From: Candidatus Krumholzibacteriota bacterium
GTDB taxonomy: Bacteria > Krumholzibacteriota > Krumholzibacteriia > Krumholzibacteriales > Krumholzibacteriaceae
Direction: 5' to 3'
Length of the DNA stretch: 64,000 bases
Assembly (NCBI GenBank): GCA_016933255.1
Contig: JAFGBF010000029.1
Span: 41,294 to 105,293, forward strand
A program made the position numbers and the translations under genes. Shown one piece after another: positions 51,767 to 64,000 of the stretch. Positions within the stretch are counted from its first letter, which is position 1, and each line of letters opens with the position of its first letter. The notes beneath the pieces were generated by a model. It saw only the letters and a program-made list of their open reading frames with translations. It did not search any database and was not told the DNA's origin.

Positions 51767-52963
51767 CTACTTGCCTGTCATCATCTTTCTTATTTCTTCT
51801 GTCTTTTCCTGCGACATCCTTATAAGGTCGCCCTCGGACATTATCCATCTTTCCCCGGAATTCCTGTCGATCCTTCCCACACGCTCGGTGCAGGAATAAC
51901 ACGGGTCGACAGCCGCCGTGATCAGCCCCGCGTCGGCCACAGTATCTCCGACAACGCTGTATTCGTTGGTCAGGATATTATTGAAACTCGGAGCCCTTAT
52001 CTTATGCCTCATCGGCATATTTCCGCCGTTCGACCGGATATAGTGCAGGACCTCGCCGCGGGGAGCTTCATAAACCCCTATTCCTTCACCGGGTGGGACC
52101 TCTCCTATCTCGGTGCAGATATCGCCGGGGCCGAGCGCCTCGAGTTTGTCGAGGGCCTGCCTGATTATCTTTATAGACTCGAAGTTCTCGAGCTGCCTGA
52201 CGACCGCCTTGTCGTATACGTCGCCGTTTTCACATACTATGACATCGAAATCGATTTTCCCGTAAGCATCGATCGGATGATCCCTTCTCGCATCGATATT
52301 ATACCCGCCGGCCCTCGCCGTAGGCCCAAGCGCCCCGTAGAGCCTGCACATCTTCTTGTCGAGGATACCGACGCCTTCCGTGCGCGCATGGATCACCGGG
52401 TCGTCGACGATCGCCCCTGTGAGCATCTTGTTTTTTTCTACAAGATCATCCAGCATCTTCCTTATATTCGGTATCTCTTCTACGGGGATCTCCCTTCTGA
52501 CTCCGCCGATCCGCATCATCGCGTAGTGGTTCCTGTTTCCGGTGACCGCTTCGAGAATATCGAGCACCGGTTCCCTGTATTTCCAGGTCCACATAAAGAC
52601 CGTGTTATAACCGATGAAATGGCCAGCAAGCCCTGTCCAGAGCAGATGGCTGTGAAGCCTTTCCAGCTCTGCGACGATCGCCCGTATATACTGCGCCCTT
52701 TCAGGGACCTCTATCTGGAGAAGGTCCTCGACAGCTTTTACATACGCGTACGGATGGGAGCATGAACAGATTCCGCAGACCCTTTCTACGAGAAAGGGAA
52801 CCTGATCCCATGTCTTGTGTTCCGAAAGGAGCTCGATCCCGCGATGACTCCAGCCAATCGTCATATCTATATCGACCACCCGCTCGCCATCTACATGAAG
52901 CTCGAAGAATTCGGGCTCCTCAAGGATAGGATGGAAGGGGCCGATAGGGATCTTTTTTACCAT
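51767..52963 (-). CDS. [NiFe] hydrogenase large subunit, group 4 type
   Basis: Both metal-binding CxxC motifs present: RVCGICSCSHPYAY and DPCYSCTERVGR, with a C-terminal extension. Confidence 0.92.
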   Translation of the reverse strand: MVKKIPIGPFHPILEEPEFFELHVDGERVVDIDMTIGWSHRGIELLSEHKTWDQVPFLVERVCGICSCSHPYAYVKAVEDLLQIEVPERAQYIRAIVAELERLHSHLLWTGLAGHFIGYNTVFMWTWKYREPVLDILEAVTGNRNHYAMMRIGGVRREIPVEEIPNIRKMLDDLVEKNKMLTGAIVDDPVIHARTEGVGILDKKMCRLYGALGPTARAGGYNIDARRDHPIDAYGKIDFDVIVCENGDVYDKAVVRQLENFESIKIIRQALDKLEALGPGDICTEIGEVPPGEGIGVYEAPRGEVLHYIRSNGGNMPMRHKIRAPSFNNILTNEYSVVGDTVADAGLITAAVDPCYSCTERVGRIDRNSGERWIMSEGDLIRMSQEKTEEIRKMMTGK

Positions 52964-53009
52964 CTAATCTCACCTCGTTGTCCAAACGGCATACTCTGCC
53001 GGGAAATCC

Positions 53010-53531
53010 TTACGGGTTCTGGCCCTCTGGCGGCTTGCCGGTAACCTCGTTATATCTATCTATACCATCATTCTTAATACGCGACATCTCGTGGTCATCC
53101 TTGTTCTCTCTCTTTTGCGGATAAAAATCCTCCGGCCTGGTATCGGAACGAAGCACAGGCCTGAGATCCGGATGACCTTTGAATCTTACCTCGAACATCT
53201 CGAAGATCTCCCTCTCGATCCACTTGGCGCCGGGGATGACATTGGAGATCGAATCAAGCTCCGGGTAAGGTTTCTCGGCGTATGTCTTGATCGTGACAAA
53301 ATAATGTTCCTTGTCGTAGGGAAAGAACATCAGGACTTCGACCCCGCCTCGGTCGTCAATACCGACTCCCGTATCGAACCTGGCGTCAAGATCGTTGAAA
53401 AGAAAGGTCGCGAGATCAAGCCAGGACTCTTTTTCAGCATAGATATATACCCGCTTTTCAGAGGGCTGGTCTATCTTGACCCTGTCTCCGAACTTTTCCG
53501 CTATCCGCTTCTTTACTTCTTCTCTCTCCAT
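53010..53531 (-). CDS. NuoC/30-kDa-like hydrogenase subunit
   Basis: FPYDKEHYFVTIKTYAEKPYPELDSISNVIPGAKWIEREIFEMFEVRFKGHPDLRPVL. Confidence 0.9.
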   Translation of the reverse strand: MEREEVKKRIAEKFGDRVKIDQPSEKRVYIYAEKESWLDLATFLFNDLDARFDTGVGIDDRGGVEVLMFFPYDKEHYFVTIKTYAEKPYPELDSISNVIPGAKWIEREIFEMFEVRFKGHPDLRPVLRSDTRPEDFYPQKRENKDDHEMSRIKNDGIDRYNEVTGKPPEGQNP

Positions 53532-53571
53532 CTTCCTGTTTCCCTGATTCTTTCCCAGGCACACGGCCCGT

Positions 53572-53985
53572 CTATAATGTGTTCAGGACTTTTACGACCC
53601 CGGCGATGATCGTCTCCGGTTTAGGGGGACACCCCGGAACATAAGCATCGACCGGTATATATTTGTCGACAGGACCGATAATATTATATCCATCCCTGAA
53701 GATACCGCAATTACACCCGCACGCTCCGATGACTATCACCTTGACCGGCTTGGGAGCCTGTTCATAAAGCCTTTTCAGCCTCGGCAGGACATTTCGCGTA
53801 ACGGGACCGCTTATCAAGAGCACGTCCGCGTGTCTTATGCTGCCGACAAGCACTATTCCGAAACGTTCAACATCGAACCTTGGCGTTAGAGCGTCCAATA
53901 TCTCTATGTCGCAGTTATTGCAGGCACCGGTATTTACATGAAACACCCATGGTGATTTTTTTAGAGCTTTCAAAGCCAGTGACAT
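53572..53985 (-). CDS. [NiFe] hydrogenase small subunit, NuoB-like
   Basis: HVNTGACNNCDIEILDALTPRFDVERFGIVLVGSIRHADVLLISGPVTRN; GACGCNCGIF; YVPGCPPKPETI. Confidence 0.92.
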   Translation of the reverse strand: MSLALKALKKSPWVFHVNTGACNNCDIEILDALTPRFDVERFGIVLVGSIRHADVLLISGPVTRNVLPRLKRLYEQAPKPVKVIVIGACGCNCGIFRDGYNIIGPVDKYIPVDAYVPGCPPKPETIIAGVVKVLNTL

Positions 53986-54000
53986 ACTTTCCTCCGCGAC

Positions 54001-54927
54001 CTAGTAACCGAGCACTGCCAGGACCAAAGCGACTACAGAGAGAACAAGCATCGGTCCCCAGAAAAAACGCAGGGCCTGATCGATCCTGACCCTGGGATTA
54101 GTATTCTTTATAAGCACTATAATTACCACTATAGCTACATACTTGAGTATCGATGTAAGGATGCTCCACCCGGCGAACGAGACCCCTCCCCAGAAAAGGG
54201 TTATCATAAAGACCGGAAGCACAAAGAACATGATCGCCGTATTCAGCTTTATCACGGCGAGCGGGGCCCCCGAATATTCTATATGCGTGCCGCCCGCAAG
54301 CTCGGTCTCCGCCTCAGGTATATCAAATGGAATAAAGGTAAGCTTTGCCTGAACACACATTATCATAACGATAAACGCAATTATTCCCGACGCGCTTCCC
54401 AGCATGATCCCCGATGAAGCCTGCTCGGCCAGTATCCGCTCGAAAGAGAAGCTTCCCGCTTTATATACTGTAGTCAGCATAGAGATCACCAGAGGCAGTT
54501 CATAGGCAAAAAGAAGTTTCATCTCCCTGCTTGCGCCGAGGACAGCCAGAGGATTCCCGGAAGCGCTCGCTCCAAGGATCATCGCTATCGCCGGAATAGT
54601 CATTATATACAGCACGACGATCGAATCTCCGACGAACGAGACAGAGAAAAGATTCGCCAGCCAGATTATGGTGGAGGCGAGAGTGGCGGCCGCAAGACCT
54701 ATGACCGGCATCAGGAGAAACCCGGTCTTCTTCGAACCGGCCGGAACGATCACTTCCTTGCCGAGAAGTTTCATTGTATCGGCAAAAGGCTGGTACCAGG
54801 GAGGTCCGACCCTCCAATGGACCCTCGCGGTCACCTTTCTATCCACCCAGGTAGTCAAAAGCCCGACCACCCCGGTAAAAAGAAACCCCGGAAATATCAG
54901 ATAAAAGAACAGGTACTTTAAGTCCAT
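54001..54927 (-). CDS. NuoH/HycD/MbhM-like membrane subunit
   Basis: DRKVTARVHWRVGPPWYQPFADTMKLLGKE; FIPFDIPEAETELAGGTHIEYSGAPLAVIKL. Confidence 0.93.
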   Translation of the reverse strand: MDLKYLFFYLIFPGFLFTGVVGLLTTWVDRKVTARVHWRVGPPWYQPFADTMKLLGKEVIVPAGSKKTGFLLMPVIGLAAATLASTIIWLANLFSVSFVGDSIVVLYIMTIPAIAMILGASASGNPLAVLGASREMKLLFAYELPLVISMLTTVYKAGSFSFERILAEQASSGIMLGSASGIIAFIVMIMCVQAKLTFIPFDIPEAETELAGGTHIEYSGAPLAVIKLNTAIMFFVLPVFMITLFWGGVSFAGWSILTSILKYVAIVVIIVLIKNTNPRVRIDQALRFFWGPMLVLSVVALVLAVLGY

Positions 54928-54939
54928 AGGTCCTCTCCG

Positions 54940-55419
54940 CTAACGCGTCAACATCCATCTGGTGAAATAGCGTCCACCCTCGGTGACATTTCGATGTTTT
55001 TTCTCAAGTTCCGTAAGTTCTTCAAAAACAAGCGCTCCGGAAGTACAGGTAGATACACATCTCGGCTGTTTGTCTTCCTTGAGGCGGTCCTGACAGAGAT
55101 CGCATTTCGGAGAAATATGCCAGGTACTGTAAACAAACATCACGCCGAACGGACACGCCATTATACATGATTTGCACCCGATGCACAGCTGATTCATCCT
55201 TACGATCGTTCCGTCTTCTTCCTTTTTGATCGCGTCCTGGGGACACACTTCAAGACACAAAGGCGTGTCGCAGTGGCGGCAATGCAGGGGCATCAATGCA
55301 GCTTCTTCAACAGGACCATGCTTTAAAAGGCCCTGTTTTTCATGTCCCCCCGAACAGGCAGCCGCACAGGCTCTGCATCCGGTACACAAGTTCATGTTTA
55401 TATAGATTCTTTTTTCCAT
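54940..55419 (-). CDS. Four-cluster ferredoxin, HycB/CooF-like
   Basis: NLCTGCRACAAACSGGH; HCRHCDTPLCLEVCPQDAI; CIGCKSCIMACPFG; CDLCQDR..PRCVSTCTSGAL. Confidence 0.9.
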   Translation of the reverse strand: MEKRIYINMNLCTGCRACAAACSGGHEKQGLLKHGPVEEAALMPLHCRHCDTPLCLEVCPQDAIKKEEDGTIVRMNQLCIGCKSCIMACPFGVMFVYSTWHISPKCDLCQDRLKEDKQPRCVSTCTSGALVFEELTELEKKHRNVTEGGRYFTRWMLTR

Positions 55420-55421
55420 AA

Positions 55422-57209
55422 TCAGCTCTTCTCGCTCTGACGCTCAAGGTTGACAGGGACCGGCGCAAGCATCACACATTCTGTCTTCTCATCAAGACTC
55501 CACGGGAACAGTTTGCGGACCGAAGGGAAGTGAATCGATGCGGCGGCGGTATTGCCTGAGAGTTTTTTTGAAACCGTTGCCTTGAATATCTCTTCTCCGC
55601 CGCCAGATGAGACCTTGACCCTGTCACCGCCGGTCAATTCAAGGCTGGAAGCGATCTCCCGGGAGATAAAAAGCTGCGGCTCCGGACAGGTGACTCGAGA
55701 CCAGTGCAGATTTCTCGTCACCGATCCGTCAGCTGCGTGAACAGCTTCGCTCCACGGCATCAGCACGCACGGAGCCGAACCAAATCCTCTGACCGAGTTG
55801 CAATACTTAGTCCATTTTTCGGTAAGCCCTTCGCCTGATCCCGATCTGGCCGTTTTCCTCTCGACGCTGGCTTCACCAAGCTCTGCGCCCATCTCTTTTG
55901 CGAGCGCCCTGAGGAATTCCCCTTCCGAATATGCTCCGGCCGGAGGATCTATCACATCTTCACGCACGACATCTTCTTTGAACGAAGGGGATACGGTCCC
56001 TTTCTTTTCCATCAGGCAGGCAGCAGGAATCACAACGTTGGAACGGGCCGATGTCTGACCCCAGAAAAGCTGCGTCGCCACCGTGAATTTCTTTTCTCTG
56101 AGAGCTTTTTCAACAGGGCCTGCGGGGTATACCGAGAAGATGTCCAGCCCGAGGATCACAAGGGCATCGATCTCTTTAGTTTCGAGTTTTCCAATTACAG
56201 ATCCGCATCCCGCGCCGGCAAGGACCGAATAGATCCCCCAGGAATTCTGCTGCACGAACTGCGGTTCGAAGAGTTTATCGCCCGGACATATCATGGTGAG
56301 CGCTTCGGCAAAAAGCGAAAGGAGGCCTGAAAACGACAGCCTGCCGAAAATATTTGAAAGATACGTCTCTATCTTCGCCGCTCCGAGCATCGCTCCAGCG
56401 CAGTTTTCTATCAGTTTTTTCTCTATTCCGCCGAGCTTTTCGATATCTTCCCAGCTGATAGCGTCTATCAGTTTTTTCAGGGCCGGCGTAAGGGGGTTTC
56501 CGCTTTTTGAAGATGCTGATTTCAGAAGACCCGCCACTACGGCAGTCTCTCCTCCGGGAAGGCACGCAAGATGTCTCCCGGCAAACCAGGCCGTGTGATT
56601 AAGCTCTGGACTTATAACGATTATCTCATTTCCCCTGCCGGCATTTTTCCCGGCGAGCACGGTCTTTGCCGTACAGGGATGATCGGAAAATGAATCGCCT
56701 ATCATAAGATAGACGCTCTTTGTCCCCTCAGGTTTTTTAGCGGTCGGCGAAAGCGACGAAAGATCACAATCGAGATACGCGGAAAAGAGGGGAGTGTCAT
56801 CAGGCGCAAACAATTCTACATTGGAAGTCCCTATGACATCTTTGGCAAACTTGAGCGCAAGTGCAGCTTCCTCGTTTGTAAGATTCTCGCCGATAAGGAC
56901 CCCGATACTATCGGCGCCTGATTCCGACTTGATCGAAGCGAGATTCTTTGCGGTTTCCTTTACGGCTTCGTCAAAGCTGGTCCTTTTCCCGAGGACAAAC
57001 GAATAGTTCAGCCTTTTCGGGTGCGATAAAAGCTCGACCGCAGAATTGCCGCGGGCGCAGAGGCTGCCGCCGAACTTGGATCCTTCTCTTTCGTCCCAGT
57101 CTATCGACAGGATCGAATCCTTCGTGAAGGAAGGCGACCTTTTCCCTCCCTTGAAAACAAGGGGGCAGGCCAGCGAACAAAGCGAACAGTAGTTGTTTAT
57201 CTCACTCAT
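55422..57209 (-). CDS. Molybdopterin oxidoreductase-fold subunit (NuoG/FdhF-like), predicted to lack Mo-ligand Cys/Sec
   Basis: YCSLCSLACPLVF...GSLCARGNSAVELLSHPKRLNYSFV; TNEEAALALKFAKDVIGTSNVELFAPDDTPLFSAYL has no C/U at the usual site; C-terminal MopB binding domain (TCPEPQLFISREIASSLELTGGDRVKVSS). Confidence 0.8.
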   Translation of the reverse strand: MSEINNYCSLCSLACPLVFKGGKRSPSFTKDSILSIDWDEREGSKFGGSLCARGNSAVELLSHPKRLNYSFVLGKRTSFDEAVKETAKNLASIKSESGADSIGVLIGENLTNEEAALALKFAKDVIGTSNVELFAPDDTPLFSAYLDCDLSSLSPTAKKPEGTKSVYLMIGDSFSDHPCTAKTVLAGKNAGRGNEIIVISPELNHTAWFAGRHLACLPGGETAVVAGLLKSASSKSGNPLTPALKKLIDAISWEDIEKLGGIEKKLIENCAGAMLGAAKIETYLSNIFGRLSFSGLLSLFAEALTMICPGDKLFEPQFVQQNSWGIYSVLAGAGCGSVIGKLETKEIDALVILGLDIFSVYPAGPVEKALREKKFTVATQLFWGQTSARSNVVIPAACLMEKKGTVSPSFKEDVVREDVIDPPAGAYSEGEFLRALAKEMGAELGEASVERKTARSGSGEGLTEKWTKYCNSVRGFGSAPCVLMPWSEAVHAADGSVTRNLHWSRVTCPEPQLFISREIASSLELTGGDRVKVSSGGGEEIFKATVSKKLSGNTAAASIHFPSVRKLFPWSLDEKTECVMLAPVPVNLERQSEKS

Positions 57210-57265
57210 AGACTGTTTTCTTCCCGCGCTCCTCCCTTTCGGAGAGCGCCCAAACGACGATCATA

Positions 57266-58084
57266 CTAACCAAACACGTTCGGAACGTCCTTGATCTTGT
57301 CGTAACACATATCGGGGCCGTCGACGCACAGGTAATAATGCCCGACATTACAGCGGCCGCATTTCCCCATGCCGCAGGACATCTTCCTGTTCATTGAAAG
57401 ATAGATCTGCGGTGGAGTAAATCCCACTTCCAGCAGCTTCAAAGTGACAAACTTAAGCATGATCTCGGGTCCGCACGACAGAGCGTAAGATTCAGGGACG
57501 CTGACATCAAGATCATCCAGCAAAGTGGTCACCAGACCGACATGCCCGTCCCAGTCAGGGTGCGCAACATCGATCGTGGTCTTCAGCGAAATATTTGAAG
57601 CGAGACCTTCCCATTCCTTGTACTGTCTTCGGAAACTAAGCTCGGCCGGTTCCCTTGCGCCGAACTTGATCTCGATCTTTTTGTATTTTGAGGGATCGTT
57701 GAAGAGGGCATAGAGGAGAGAACGCATAGGCGCAAGTCCAACTCCGCCTCCTACTACAAGGACATCCTTTCCGGCAAGCTTTTCGAGAGGATACCCTTTC
57801 CCGAACGGTCCTCTCAGCCCGACAACAGCCCCCGGTTTCAGTTCATGCAGGGCATCGGTGACCTTGCCGGTCTTCAGGATGGAGATCTCCATCTTTTCTT
57901 CTATATTAGGATCGGAACTCGGAGTGAACGGAGCCTCTCCGACACCCGGAACGGTAAGCTGCATGAACTGGCCGGCCTTGAACTTGATCGGCTTTGCCGG
58001 TTTCAGGCAGAAGGTCTTGATCGTCGGGGTCTCCGAGATCACATCTTCCAAGATGGTATCTATGGGATAATACGGGTTTTTCAT
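57266..58084 (-). CDS. FAD/NAD(P)-binding oxidoreductase, sulfhydrogenase gamma subunit (HydG-like)
   Basis: FKAGQFMQLTVPGVGEAPFTPSS; LRGPFGKGYPLEKLAGKDVLVVGGGVGLAPMRSLLY; YALSCGPEIM; MSCGMGKCGRCNVGHYYLCVDGP. Confidence 0.92.
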   Translation of the reverse strand: MKNPYYPIDTILEDVISETPTIKTFCLKPAKPIKFKAGQFMQLTVPGVGEAPFTPSSDPNIEEKMEISILKTGKVTDALHELKPGAVVGLRGPFGKGYPLEKLAGKDVLVVGGGVGLAPMRSLLYALFNDPSKYKKIEIKFGAREPAELSFRRQYKEWEGLASNISLKTTIDVAHPDWDGHVGLVTTLLDDLDVSVPESYALSCGPEIMLKFVTLKLLEVGFTPPQIYLSMNRKMSCGMGKCGRCNVGHYYLCVDGPDMCYDKIKDVPNVFG

Positions 58085-58098
58085 ACCCTTTCGCTCCC

Positions 58099-59148
58099 TT
58101 ATCTGGTTGCTTTCGTTACTACCTTACTGAATACTTCCCGCATATCGATGCTCGCCGAACATGCGTCAATACATCTTCCGCAGCCGGTACAGAAGACCGC
58201 ATTATGGCTGAGGGGAAGATAATCATACTTGTGATAAAACCTGTGCTTTACCCTGTCAGAAAGCCGGGGGCGCGGAGTACCCATCCCTGCCATCCTCGAA
58301 TATCCGCTTACCTGGCAGGAATCCCAGGACATTATCCTTTTGTACTGTTCCCCATCTTTCTGGTCGAAAAGCAGGAAACAGTAACAGGTCGGGCAGATGT
58401 TCGTGCAGGCGCCGCACTCTACGCATCTCGAGGCTTCTTCGGTCCAGATCTCATCATTGAGCATTTTCCGAAGCGGTTCTGTCACCTCGGCGCTCTCAGG
58501 ATAACTTTTGTTGTTCGCCTTGAGCTGTGAAAGGACTTTCTTCCGGTTTTCATCTCTCGTCTTTTCAAGGCCTTCGCGGACTTCCGAAAAGAGACCTCCG
58601 TTCTCTTCGATAATCCCGGCGCCTCTTTCCGATCCTTCTTCTACCAGAAAACCGCTGGCAACCTTGGCGATCGCCAGATCATACCCTTTTTCCGGCCAGG
58701 GGTTCGAGCCGGTAAGGTTGCAAAAACAACTCTCCGAACACTCTGAACAGTCGGAAGCGATAACGAGCATCCTGTCCCGTCTGATCTTGTAGAACGGATC
58801 GATATAGTCGCCCTCCGCCTGTACGCTGTCGACAAGCTCCATCGCCTTCAGGTCGCATCCCTTTGCCCCGACTATGACATAACCGGGGAAGGAATCTTCC
58901 GGCTTCAACTCATCTTTTTCCTCAGAGGGATACTGCGCGACCTCGAAGCGAAGATGCTGGGCAAACCCTTTAAGGGTCTCGACCGCCCTGAAACCGTCAA
59001 AAACGGTTCCGTCGGGCAGCGGGAATGATTCCACCCTTCTCATATGGAGTTTTCCGGTATCTTCTTCTTTGACAGGCACAAAAAGCTCCCCCTCCGCGGA
59101 GAGCTTCTTCAAAAGCTTCTCAAAATCAGTCGAATCAATGAATCTCAT
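58099..59148 (-). CDS. 4Fe-4S dicluster protein, sulfhydrogenase beta subunit (HydB/AsrA-like)
   Basis: CVECGACTNICPTCYCFLLFDQ; RVKHRFYHKYDYLPLSHNAVFCTGCGRCIDACSASIDMREV. Confidence 0.9.
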   Translation of the reverse strand: MRFIDSTDFEKLLKKLSAEGELFVPVKEEDTGKLHMRRVESFPLPDGTVFDGFRAVETLKGFAQHLRFEVAQYPSEEKDELKPEDSFPGYVIVGAKGCDLKAMELVDSVQAEGDYIDPFYKIRRDRMLVIASDCSECSESCFCNLTGSNPWPEKGYDLAIAKVASGFLVEEGSERGAGIIEENGGLFSEVREGLEKTRDENRKKVLSQLKANNKSYPESAEVTEPLRKMLNDEIWTEEASRCVECGACTNICPTCYCFLLFDQKDGEQYKRIMSWDSCQVSGYSRMAGMGTPRPRLSDRVKHRFYHKYDYLPLSHNAVFCTGCGRCIDACSASIDMREVFSKVVTKATR

Positions 59149-59410: not shown

Positions 59411-60328
59411 TTATTCGTCCAAAAGAATTTTCACAGCCTCTCCAAGTTCGTTTCCTCTGAGATTCTTATATCTTATTATCCCTTTTCGGTCCAGGATGAG
59501 TGTCGAAGGGATTGAGCTTACCGCGTAAAGCCTGCCCAGCTCCGCCTTCCAGCCCTTACCGTCAAACACCTGCCGCCATTCTATTTTCTGTTCTTTTATA
59601 TAGTTATCGAATTTTTCCCTGCTTTCGTCCATCGATATCCCTATAATGTCGAACCCTTTTCCATGGTTTTCGGCGTAGACCCTCTTGACATTCGGCATCT
59701 CCGCTCTGCAGGGGCTGCACCATGTCGCCCAGAAATCGATCAGAACGACTTTTCCCCTGTACTGCTTGAGATCTATCTTTTTGCCATCGACTGCAGTAGC
59801 TGAAAAATCTATCGCCGGATTCCCGATCTTCAGCTTCTTCAGCGTGTTTATCTGCGACAGGGTCATTGCGGCACTCTGCTTCGTCTTTGGGTCGGCTCCG
59901 CTCTCTGCCGATGCTATCTCTCTGAACTGTATCTCTGCTTCATCGAACATATTCATCGAGAGGTATGTCGATCCGAGTATCATCCTTGCGACGCCAAGCT
60001 CCATAGGCTGTTTAGTGCAGGTGCACGCCAGGTATTTGTTGAGCTCCTGTACAGCCTCGTTGCCCCTCCCCGTATTGCTGTAGATCTGGGCCAGGACCAC
60101 CCGGGCGCTTCCGGATGAAGAGGTCCCGGGAAATCTTTGAACAAAGCTGCTGAGCTTCTCTTCGGCCATCCTGATGAGCTCAGCCTGTCCCATCGAACTT
60201 CTTTTCTGCTCAAACTCCGCTATCAGGGCGGCATATTGACTTCTCGCTTCCTCCTCGGCATCCTGACCCGCAGCCATGATCGGCATGACGGCCAGAAGCA
60301 GAAAAAGGATCGAAATTATCCTGTTCAT
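59411..60328 (-). CDS. Exported TPR + TlpA/ResA-type thiol-disulfide oxidoreductase
   Basis: Signal peptide MNRIISILFLLLAVMPIMAAG; VVLIDFWATWCSPCRAEMPNVKRVY; VSSIPSTLILDRKGII. Confidence 0.9.
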   Translation of the reverse strand: MNRIISILFLLLAVMPIMAAGQDAEEEARSQYAALIAEFEQKRSSMGQAELIRMAEEKLSSFVQRFPGTSSSGSARVVLAQIYSNTGRGNEAVQELNKYLACTCTKQPMELGVARMILGSTYLSMNMFDEAEIQFREIASAESGADPKTKQSAAMTLSQINTLKKLKIGNPAIDFSATAVDGKKIDLKQYRGKVVLIDFWATWCSPCRAEMPNVKRVYAENHGKGFDIIGISMDESREKFDNYIKEQKIEWRQVFDGKGWKAELGRLYAVSSIPSTLILDRKGIIRYKNLRGNELGEAVKILLDE

Positions 60329-60348
60329 CTTCTCTCCTCTTTTAAAAA

Positions 60349-60376
60349 AGGGCGTGCCGATATTCCAGCACGCCCT
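60349..60376 (-). terminator. Intrinsic terminator after DUF1573-like gene
   Basis: Minus strand AGGGCGTGC-TGGAATATCG-GCACGCCCT followed by TTTTT. Confidence 0.85.
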
Positions 60377-60407: not shown

Positions 60408-61460
60408 TTACTCGTTATCCATTACCCTGACCATACCCTTGATCGGAAGTTCAAGCCTTTCATATCCTGGATAATTCGTAATAAATGTCACTGTTCCTTC
60501 ATATTTGCCCGATTTGGCAGGGGGCCTGATGCTGATGACACAGCTGAAGGCCTTACCTGGACGAGTCTCTCTTACGTTGACCGTAATATCGTCCCTGTCG
60601 GGTATTACTTCGAGTATCTGCAGAGAATCTCCTCTAGCGGCGATCAACGACACTCTCTTTTCAAAGTTCTTTGTCTTGCCCCCGTCCAACCTCATCTCTC
60701 TCATGATAACAGTCCTGGGAGCCAGCTGGACATCAGGAGTTATCGTAAGGCTGAACAGGATCTTCTTCTCGGAGATATCCTTGAAATCCGTTTCCAGGAC
60801 GACGTCGCCGATGTATCTGCCCGGTTCCGCATCCTCTTTTGTCCACATCTTGAGGTTATATTTTTTGCCCGGTTCGATAGTAACCAGTTCTACCCCGATA
60901 TTTTCACAAAGAAAATCGAAGTCTTTGCTCTTTTCAGCCCAGTGCCACCCGGTGATATTTATCGGGTCGGGCAGCTTGATCGAGATGATCGATTCAAGCT
61001 TGAGCTCTTCTTTTGCAAATCCCGAGAGATTCAGGCTTTTTGACAGTTCGAATACCTGTTTGACAATACCTGTCACGCTCAGGATGATCTTTTTGTTTTC
61101 AGGATCGTTGGTCTGCACGGTAAATGACTTCTTGAAACGACCCGGATGAACCTTGAACCCCGTTATCTTTACTGAAATTTTTCCTTCCGACCCGGGAAGG
61201 ATGACCTTGTCATGGTCTGCTACTGAGCAGCCTCACCCAGGTTTAACACTTAAGATGTGAAGTTCACCTGCCCCGTTGTTTTGTACCTTGAAATCATACA
61301 GGATGTCGACCCCTTCGTAATAATTGCCGAGATCGACAGTCTTTTCTTTGACAAAAAATGCCGGGTCGCTCCCGGCCGCATATACCGCCGCCGGCAAGAC
61401 CATGCTGGCGAGGATCGAAATCACTACCAGCGCTGCTGCCAGCTTTCGAATATCCATCAT
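60408..61460 (-). CDS. DUF1573-family exported protein, candidate selenoprotein (in-frame UGA at 61235..61233)
   Basis: ORF 61233..61460 and ORF 60408..61118 are in the same frame with only TGA between: ..DLGNYYEGVDILYDFKVQNNGAGELHILSVKPG[UGA]GCSVADHDKVILPGSEGKISVKITGFKVHPGRFKKSFTVQTNDPENKKI... The UGA aligns with the first Cys of the DUF1573 CGC motif. Confidence 0.75.
61201..61232 (-). promoter_or_regulatory. Candidate bacterial SECIS region immediately 3' of the in-frame UGA
   Basis: mRNA after UGA: GG-CUGCU(CAGU)AGCAG-A-CC, then AUGAC(AAG)GUCAU; two consecutive perfect 5-bp stems within 32 nt. Confidence 0.45.
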
Positions 61461-61796: not shown

Positions 61797-62984
61797 ATGG
61801 ATGACAGGAAAGAGATCTTTCTGGACCACAATTCGGCAAGAGCTACCAGGAGCGAAGCTGTCGAGGAAATGTCCCGGCTTTTTGCCGACGGATTTGGAAA
61901 TCCTCAAAGCGTCCATGATCGCGGACAGAGAGCCGCGGAAAAACTCGAAAACGCGCGGGCAGAGGTAGCCTCTCTCGTGGGGGCCGATCCTGAGGATATC
62001 ATCTTCACCGCGACAGGTTCAGAAGCTAACAATATGGCAGTGAAGGGGATAGCCCGCGCCCGGAAAAACAGGTCCAACCGGGTAATAATATCCCCGATAG
62101 AACACCATTCGGTCGCCATACCTGCCGATTCTCTCCGCAAGGAAGGGTTTGAACTCGTTACCCTCCCCGTCGACAGTACGGGGCTTATCGACCCTGATTC
62201 GCTGGCAAAAGCGGTATCGGATGGGGCAGCTCTGGTCTCGGTAATACACGCGAGCACAGAGATCGGCACTATAGAGCCGATACGCGAGCTCGCCGCAATC
62301 TGCGCTGAAAAAGGCGTGCCGTTCCACACCGATTCCTGGGGAACCGCAGGCTCAATAAAGATAGACTGTAAAGATATCCCTCTGAACGCGATGACGATCG
62401 CCGGACAGAACTTCGGCGGGCCTCCGGGCGCAGCCGCTCTTGTAATCAGAAAAGGCGTCCCTATGAAAAAACTGATCGAGGGAGGCGTACAGGAACGAAA
62501 CAGAAGAGCGGGCCAGGAAAATATCCCCGCGATTGCCGGGATGGGGATCGCCGCGCGTCTTGCTCTCAGGGAGATCGGCCAGACGACAGCCGCCCTCGTC
62601 CCCCTGAGGGATATGATGATAAAAAACCTTATTGAAAGTATTGAAGATGTTATACTTACCGGGCACCCTGAAAAAAGATTGCCCGGTCACGCTTCTTTCT
62701 GCGTTAAATATATAGAGGGAGAGGGGCTGCTTCTCTTCCTCAATCAGAAAGGCATTATGGCGGCGAGCGGCTCGGCATGCACGTCACGATCCCTTAAAGG
62801 GAGCCATGTCCTCGAGGCTATCGGCCTTGATGCCGCGACCGCGCAGGGTTCGGTCGTATTTACGTTGGGCCCGGAAAACGGCAAAGACGAGATAGGCAAA
62901 GTCATAGACGAAATGAAACCGGTCGTCTCGCGCCTTCGCGAGATGTCGCCGATATACAGGGAGAAGAAAAATGGCGCTTTATAG
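61797..62984 (+). CDS. NifS/IscS-like class V aminotransferase-fold protein lacking the PLP lysine (degenerate cysteine desulfurase)
   Basis: TATGSEANNMAVKG, PIEHHSVAIPA, GVPFHTDS, RNRRAGQENIPAIAG, ASGSACTSRSLKGSHVL support family; Schiff-base site reads MTIAGQNFGGPPGAAALV. Confidence 0.85.
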   Translation: MDDRKEIFLDHNSARATRSEAVEEMSRLFADGFGNPQSVHDRGQRAAEKLENARAEVASLVGADPEDIIFTATGSEANNMAVKGIARARKNRSNRVIISPIEHHSVAIPADSLRKEGFELVTLPVDSTGLIDPDSLAKAVSDGAALVSVIHASTEIGTIEPIRELAAICAEKGVPFHTDSWGTAGSIKIDCKDIPLNAMTIAGQNFGGPPGAAALVIRKGVPMKKLIEGGVQERNRRAGQENIPAIAGMGIAARLALREIGQTTAALVPLRDMMIKNLIESIEDVILTGHPEKRLPGHASFCVKYIEGEGLLLFLNQKGIMAASGSACTSRSLKGSHVLEAIGLDAATAQGSVVFTLGPENGKDEIGKVIDEMKPVVSRLREMSPIYREKKNGAL

Positions 62985-63558
62985 TGATAAGGTGATGGAT
63001 CATTTCATGAATCCGAGGAACGTCGGCGATCTTGAAGCCCCTGACGGGGTAGGAGAGGTGGGAAACCCCACCTGCGGGGATATGATGACATTCATGATCT
63101 CGGTCAAAGATGACAGAATAGCCGATATCCGTTTCAAGACCTTCGGCTGCGGAGCTGCCATAGCAGTATCCAGCATGGTAAGCGAAATGGCGCTCGGAAA
63201 GACCCTTGACGAGGCAATGGAGATCACAAACGCGATGGTCGCCGAAGAACTCGGAGGCCTGCCGACAAACAAGCTTCACTGTTCAAATCTCGGCGCCGAT
63301 GCCCTCCACGCTGCGATCGAGGACTACAGAAAAAGGCTCGAATCGGGCGAACCGGCAAAGGTCCCCGAGCAGCACGAAGTCAACAGAAGCGGTAAAGAAC
63401 TTCAATGTCCCTACTGCGATGCTGAGATAGAAGATAACGCCGTGCTGTGTAACGCGTGCAAGACCACTTTCGATACATGTCCGCATTGCGGCAAGATAGC
63501 GGACGCTTCCCGCGAGAACTGCCCCCACTGCGGCAAACCGATGAAGGAAACCAGCTAG
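62971..63558 (+). CDS. IscU/NifU-like Fe-S scaffold with C-terminal double zinc ribbon
   Basis: YSDKVMDHFMNPRNVG, NPTCGDMMTF, FKTFGCGAAIAVSSMVSEMALGKTLDEA, LHCSNLGADAL; then CPYCDAEIEDNAVLCNAC and CPHCGKIADASRENCPHCGKP. Confidence 0.9.
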   Translation: MALYSDKVMDHFMNPRNVGDLEAPDGVGEVGNPTCGDMMTFMISVKDDRIADIRFKTFGCGAAIAVSSMVSEMALGKTLDEAMEITNAMVAEELGGLPTNKLHCSNLGADALHAAIEDYRKRLESGEPAKVPEQHEVNRSGKELQCPYCDAEIEDNAVLCNACKTTFDTCPHCGKIADASRENCPHCGKPMKETS

Positions 63559-63584
63559 CAGGACAAAAAGGACGGTACTGAGGA

Positions 63585-64000
63585 ATGTCGAAACGGGAGC
63601 TTGCCTCAACGATATTGAGCCTTAAAAAAGAAAAAGGCGCGGTGATCCTTGCGCATAACTACCAGCCGCCCGAGATCCAGGATATCGCCGATCATCTTGG
63701 CGACTCGCTTGATCTTAGCAGGCTTGCCGCTTCTCTTCCTGAAGAGGTGATAATCTTCTGCGGCGTCCATTTTATGGCAGAGACCGCTTCGATCCTTTCT
63801 CCCGGCAAAAAGATCATTCTTCCGGACCCCTCTGCCGGATGCCCGATGGCTGACATGATAACGGCAAAGCAGCTCAGGGCTTTTCAGGCCAAACACCCCG
63901 GGGCGGTGACAGTCATGTACGTCAATTCCCCTGCCGAAGTAAAGGCTTTGACGGATATATGCTGCACTTCGGCGAATGCTCTGCAGGTCGTTGGATCCAT
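63585..64000 (+). CDS. nadA: Quinolinate synthase, truncated at window edge
   Basis: From ATG 63585: [91 protein letters not shown]. Confidence 0.93.

Follow-up and report, generated by a model that had tools for sequence, protein, structure and literature searches.

A probable DUF1573-family selenoprotein encoded next to a TlpA/ResA-like thiol oxidoreductase in a Krumholzibacteriota genome

The window analyzed here, a 64,000-nucleotide stretch of a Candidatus Krumholzibacteriota bacterium genome, carries on its minus strand a gene of 350 codons (60408..61460) whose reading-frame translation runs from ATG to a TAA stop with a single interruption, a TGA at 61235..61233. Readthrough gives a product of 350 residues, in which the UGA (61233..61235, minus strand) would encode selenocysteine (Sec) at residue 76, the first position of a U76-G77-C78 motif (...ELHILSVKPG-U-GCSVADHDKVILPG...). 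An Ig-like DUF1573 domain (PF07610), assigned by Pfam and AlphaFold2, covers residues 37–133 (61062..61352, minus strand; E = 2e-17, 63.4 bits versus a gathering score of 26.1), which places the UGA inside a single domain. The N terminus is signal-peptide-like by sequence (61371..61460, minus strand, boundary approximate), with a predicted helix at residues 4–26, and a GGAGGG is visible in the sequence upstream of the start codon.

The next gene (59411..60328, minus strand) encodes a TlpA/ResA-like thiol oxidoreductase with a TPR-like N-terminal part, a WCSPC active site, and an AhpC-TSA match (E = 1.5e-24). Between the two genes, a terminator-like hairpin can be read directly (GGGCGTGC...GCACGCCC-TTTTTT; 60344..60375, minus strand), so that co-transcription of the Sec-DUF1573 gene with TlpA is not assured. 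The preliminary description of this DNA had reported the two same-frame minus-strand ORFs parted by one TGA, the signal peptide and ribosome-binding site, the DUF1573 assignment, and the TlpA-type oxidoreductase as next gene and plausible partner; its coordinates and translation are correct, and the other features were likewise recovered. Downstream of TlpA, an operon-like run (51767-59148, minus strand) begins with genes for a 4Fe-4S protein and an FAD/NAD reductase subunit and also includes a molybdopterin oxidoreductase, a ferredoxin, and NADH dehydrogenase-like/NiFe-hydrogenase-like subunits; at a related locus, L055, TlpA is followed by genes with N termini very similar to those of the 4Fe-4S and FAD/NAD reductase proteins. 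Divergent from the Sec-DUF1573 gene, 61797-63998 (plus strand) encodes a NifS-like cysteine desulfurase, a NifU-like scaffold, and, judged by its translation, a NadA quinolinate synthase, and similar genes adjoin Sec-DUF1573 in L055 too. This set may supply selenium or Fe-S clusters, NAD synthesis being the more likely role.

The genome itself (2.58 Mb in 31 contigs, 91% complete; a draft, probably a MAG) encodes the full machinery for Sec insertion. Both selB (371 bits, cut-off 242) and selA (477 bits, cut-off 268) are present, and two selD matches exceed their cut-off, one of them with an in-frame UGA of its own (...FSSCLGUASKLDP...), which brings the predicted selenoproteins of this genome to at least two. 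The UGA-containing selD lies at L046:1393-2451 (minus strand; genome G000, contig C25), with the second selD match, which lacks a TGA, on the same contig. A tRNA-Sec match above the gathering score, with a TCA anticodon, sits at a contig end with its last bases missing; over 89 bases it is 99% identical to the complete tRNA-SeC gene of a relative, and five complete tRNA-SeC genes with anticodon TCA were called among the relatives. ARAGORN did not call the tRNA-Sec of the genome under study because the contig ends within the acceptor stem. SelA, SelB, SelD, and tRNA-Sec(UCA) are thus all found together, the tRNA with its 3′ end cut by the contig end, as the preliminary description had proposed to check.

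The machinery also bears on whether UGA might be reassigned in this organism (genetic code 4 or 25), with Trp or Gly at residue 76. Nothing beyond the single in-frame TGA speaks for such a code, which was likewise raised in the preliminary description. Against it stand the complete Sec machinery, the presence of Cys at the residue-76 column in homologs that lack the TGA, and the use of TGA as the stop of 21 of the 54 ORFs (greedily chosen) in the window, which shows that TGA is not reassigned. We regard this reading as already refuted, with a negligible probability of being correct.

A single-sequence scan of the genome contigs with the window protein gave no match, and homologs were recovered by an alignment-based scan of the contigs. 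A match is present in 52 of the 59 genomes searched (the genome itself plus relatives), those of the same family and order mostly carrying exactly one TGA, and orthologs at 43–70% identity have one TGA. At the 25 loci where the UGA site was read, the gene in the window included, the motif is U-G-C in every case. Across 82 Krumholzibacteriota genomes, a TGA-interrupted match was found in 28, or 27 after removal of genome G025, whose protein (family f3) was set aside as a UGA ortholog for its CYC motif and a TGA located elsewhere. From a further family in the phylum, f4, five members were taken, and the one that was readable (L128) has the motif CGC. Loci labelled Deltaproteobacteria, Desulfobacterales, and KSB1 likewise have UGA at this codon, and the other recovered homologs, from Acidobacteriota, Planctomycetota, Fibrobacteres, and Bacteroidota, have Cys at the UGA column.

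At five loci (L029, L030, L041, L060, and L066) a Sec copy has one or two Cys copies, encoded with TGC or TGT, beside it in tandem, and at L040 there are two Cys copies only. Among comparative lines of evidence for predicted Sec at the UGA column, such tandem copies are of the strongest kind. UGA orthologs, Cys homologs, and tandem paralogs together place the in-frame UGA at the position of a Cys, the one that opens the CGC motif. This is the Sec/Cys homologue pair that the preliminary description had anticipated; the check for random stops in relatives that it suggested found Sec or Cys at this column instead.

These comparisons also weigh on the possibility that the UGA is a true stop, created by sequencing error or recent decay, and that the locus is a pseudogene or two genes. 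The TGA does interrupt the ORF and the assembly is a draft of 31 contigs, but the identical TGA in dozens of genomes at 43–70% identity rules out sequencing error and refutes the pseudogene reading. In addition, identity to the closest relative is even on either side of the UGA (0.73 before, 0.71 after), and differences past the UGA are dominated by third positions (57/30/137). Decay, which had been judged less likely at the outset, can be dismissed with near certainty.

The RNA directly 3′ of the UGA is also under constraint. A comparison of 17 UGA orthologs gives a synonymous codon identity of 0.50 for the whole gene, versus 0.42 expected. In codons 80–91 it rises to 0.88, versus 0.41 expected, which is the top 12-codon segment of the gene and some 5.5 SD higher than the mean segment. 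Since these sequences share ancestry, neither these figures nor the folding energies given below are independent probabilities. Past the UGA come two hairpins. The first (61201..61223, minus strand) is at a SECIS-like position; its stem in most relatives, GUGGCC/GGUCAU, keeps four of six pairs in the window, with two broken, and the window sequence folds alternatively into a GACC/GGUC stem with an AUGACAA loop. This stem hardly varies among the relatives and hence yields no covariation. The second hairpin (CCTTCC-CGGGTC-GGAAGG; 61183..61200, minus strand) shows compensatory changes among the UGA orthologs: pairing in its CCUUCC/GGAAGG stem reaches 98% over 25 sequences, and two of the pairs show double changes (U-A/C-G and U-A/G-C exchanges), one of which couples codon 88 (Leu/Pro) to codon 92 (GAA/GAG). 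When the pairings were slid as a control, the paired share fell to at most 58%.

Folding energies point the same way. The mean for 34 UGA sites is −20.0 kcal/mol versus −15.6 ± 0.5 kcal/mol with synonymous codons randomized, and the corresponding regions of eight Cys paralogs lie 1.2 SD from random. We built the hairpin argument on these in-genome Cys paralogs and on synonymous randomization; a comparison of Sec and Cys hairpins across all phyla was rejected as confounded by relatedness and by post-motif insertions in some Cys proteins. By constraint, folding energy, and compensatory pairs, a putative SECIS lies directly 3′ of the UGA, its first hairpin imperfect in the window, and the predicted covarying hairpin is not shared by the Cys paralogs. 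The arrangement is similar to that of the SECIS of Escherichia coli fdhF, a stem-loop directly after the UGA and within the coding sequence, with its apical loop about 15–19 nt on. It differs in its second, covarying hairpin, with a loop about 38 nt past the UGA, and binding of SelB here is putative. We propose that SelB and tRNA-Sec would decode the UGA, aided by the RNA structure directly downstream. Given the conserved column, the machinery, and the RNA, the UGA at 61235..61233 is almost certainly a genuine Sec codon at which Sec is inserted.

The AlphaFold2 model of the protein (mean pLDDT 91) has strands that can be read as three Ig-like β domains, with the U-G-C motif in the turn between strands 67–74 and 79–83. 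A sequence profile gave no match in the PDB, and a fold search returned just Ig-like/ASH-type repeats (ciliary central-pair proteins, titin, cadherins; best TM-score about 0.4 by query length), which is uninformative on function. The position of the UGA in this fold is relevant to a further explanation, in which the main purpose of the codon is to let selenium supply choose between a 75-residue product and the full-length one. Sec decoding is always in competition with termination, and the Cys paralogs beside Sec copies could substitute when selenium is short; however, Sec aligns exactly with the conserved catalytic-type Cys, and the 75-residue product, which ends inside the DUF1573 domain, therefore shows no sign of being a folded domain. 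A switch as the main purpose of the UGA is accordingly improbable in our estimation.

The relationship with TlpA extends beyond this genome. Of the 25 UGA loci in the first set, 21 have a TlpA homolog downstream, and three of the other four end shortly past the Sec-DUF1573 gene. The 24 distinct TlpA proteins all keep WCxxC. The pairing is not universal, since no TlpA homolog turned up near the UGA copies of Deltaproteobacteria and KSB1. In Planctomycetota, CGC-type DUF1573 and AhpC/TSA-thioredoxin domains share one protein. The CGC column and the thioredoxin-fold partner are as here; the differences are Cys rather than Sec and one polypeptide rather than two genes. Together with the neighborhood, these proteins argue for a functional link between DUF1573 and TlpA. 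The eight fusions (L065, L072, L073, L074, L080, L084, L087, and L094) are 650–900 aa long and carry, besides a Cys-type DUF1573, between one and three thioredoxin-fold domains; Pfam was used to check five of them. The adjacent protein in the window belongs to the TlpA/ResA/DsbE family (AhpC-TSA/Redoxin, WCxxC), from which it is set apart by its TPR-like N-terminal half and its genomic link to Sec-DUF1573; it is distinct from the UGC-containing TlpA selenoprotein of published lists.

These observations suggest a mechanism in which the first of the three Ig-like domains would present a loop with Sec and Cys one residue apart. U76 and C78 could then form a reversible selenenylsulfide on a periplasmic Ig-like scaffold, which the adjacent periplasmic TlpA/ResA-like thioredoxin may reduce or oxidize, and within this periplasmic thiol/selenol pair Sec-DUF1573 would be the partner that faces the substrate or relays electrons, the chemistry, direction, and substrate being our inference. 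The main rival to a redox role is metal binding: Sec would be inserted, but U-G-C would coordinate a soft metal such as copper, or would sense selenium or a metal, with TlpA just keeping the motif reduced. Closely spaced Cys-x-Cys pairs are often metal-binding, DUF1573 has no known function, and the UGA copies outside Krumholzibacteriota lack an adjoining TlpA. On the other side, Sec that replaces a Cys usually serves as a catalytic redox residue, and DUF1573 is both linked and fused to thioredoxin-fold disulfide reductases. We consider a metal role unlikely, if far less so than a switch or a pseudogene, and a TlpA-coupled redox role of Sec-DUF1573 reasonably likely.

The preliminary description knew of no DUF1573 selenoprotein family, which proved incorrect, as such proteins already appear in PMC2398784, PMC9312934, PMC13188914, and the NCBIfam model NF041425. 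OS_HP2 (pfam07610, UxC) is among the predicted selenoproteins of PMC2398784, a "DUF1573 domain-containing protein, UGC" is listed as a selenoprotein in PMC9312934, and DUF1573 with a UGC motif is given as a predicted selenoprotein in PMC13188914. A passage of PMC9312934 credits the DUF1573 selenoprotein to Zhang and Gladyshev 2007, from a deltaproteobacterial symbiont of the gutless worm Olavius algarvensis. With C written for U, the window protein matches NF041425 (OS_HP2_seleno) over nearly the full length of the model at 89.6 bits, below the cut-off of 100, and it is therefore called a DUF1573 selenoprotein closest to OS_HP2 rather than a certified member of that NCBI subfamily; the model also recognizes each of the 28 aligned homologs (E ≤ 0.001). 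The window protein and OS_HP2 both have the DUF1573 domain and a UGA in place of the first CGC Cys, and both are predicted bacterial selenoproteins. They differ in that the window protein comes from another phylum, is paired with TlpA, and has 350 aa with three predicted Ig-like domains, whereas the deltaproteobacterial UGA loci encode 236–274 aa. The papers searched included none identified as treating selenocysteine in Krumholzibacteriota; one of them uses both Krumholzibacteri- and selenoprotein, once each. What is possibly new here is the Krumholzibacteriota clade, the tandem Sec/Cys pairs, the RNA element, and the strong TlpA/ResA tie.

Sequence evidence (the Sec machinery, the Sec/Cys column, the constrained RNA, the motif location, and the TlpA linkage) thus points to an exported, DUF1573/OS_HP2-type selenoprotein that is probably redox-active, and the explanation as a whole, an exported Sec-DUF1573 with RNA-aided UGA decoding and a TlpA-coupled selenenylsulfide, is one that we hold to be very probable. 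More tentatively, Sec-DUF1573 and TlpA might form a dedicated periplasmic selenol/thiol system of one Krumholzibacteriota clade, with adjacent Cys duplicates as a selenium-independent backup and a bipartite, two-hairpin SECIS.

The gene in the window adds an unusually well-supported member to the known DUF1573 selenoproteins. The set of loci also provides, from an uncultured phylum, a well-supported case on which SECIS prediction can be trained. Gene callers without knowledge of Sec will truncate such genes at the UGA. The natural Sec/Cys pairs within single genomes are useful for asking what selenium adds. For DUF1573, a widespread domain without an assigned function, there is now a functional lead: the exchange of Sec and Cys at the CGC motif, the TlpA neighbor, and the Planctomycetota fusions suggest a redox function that can be tested.
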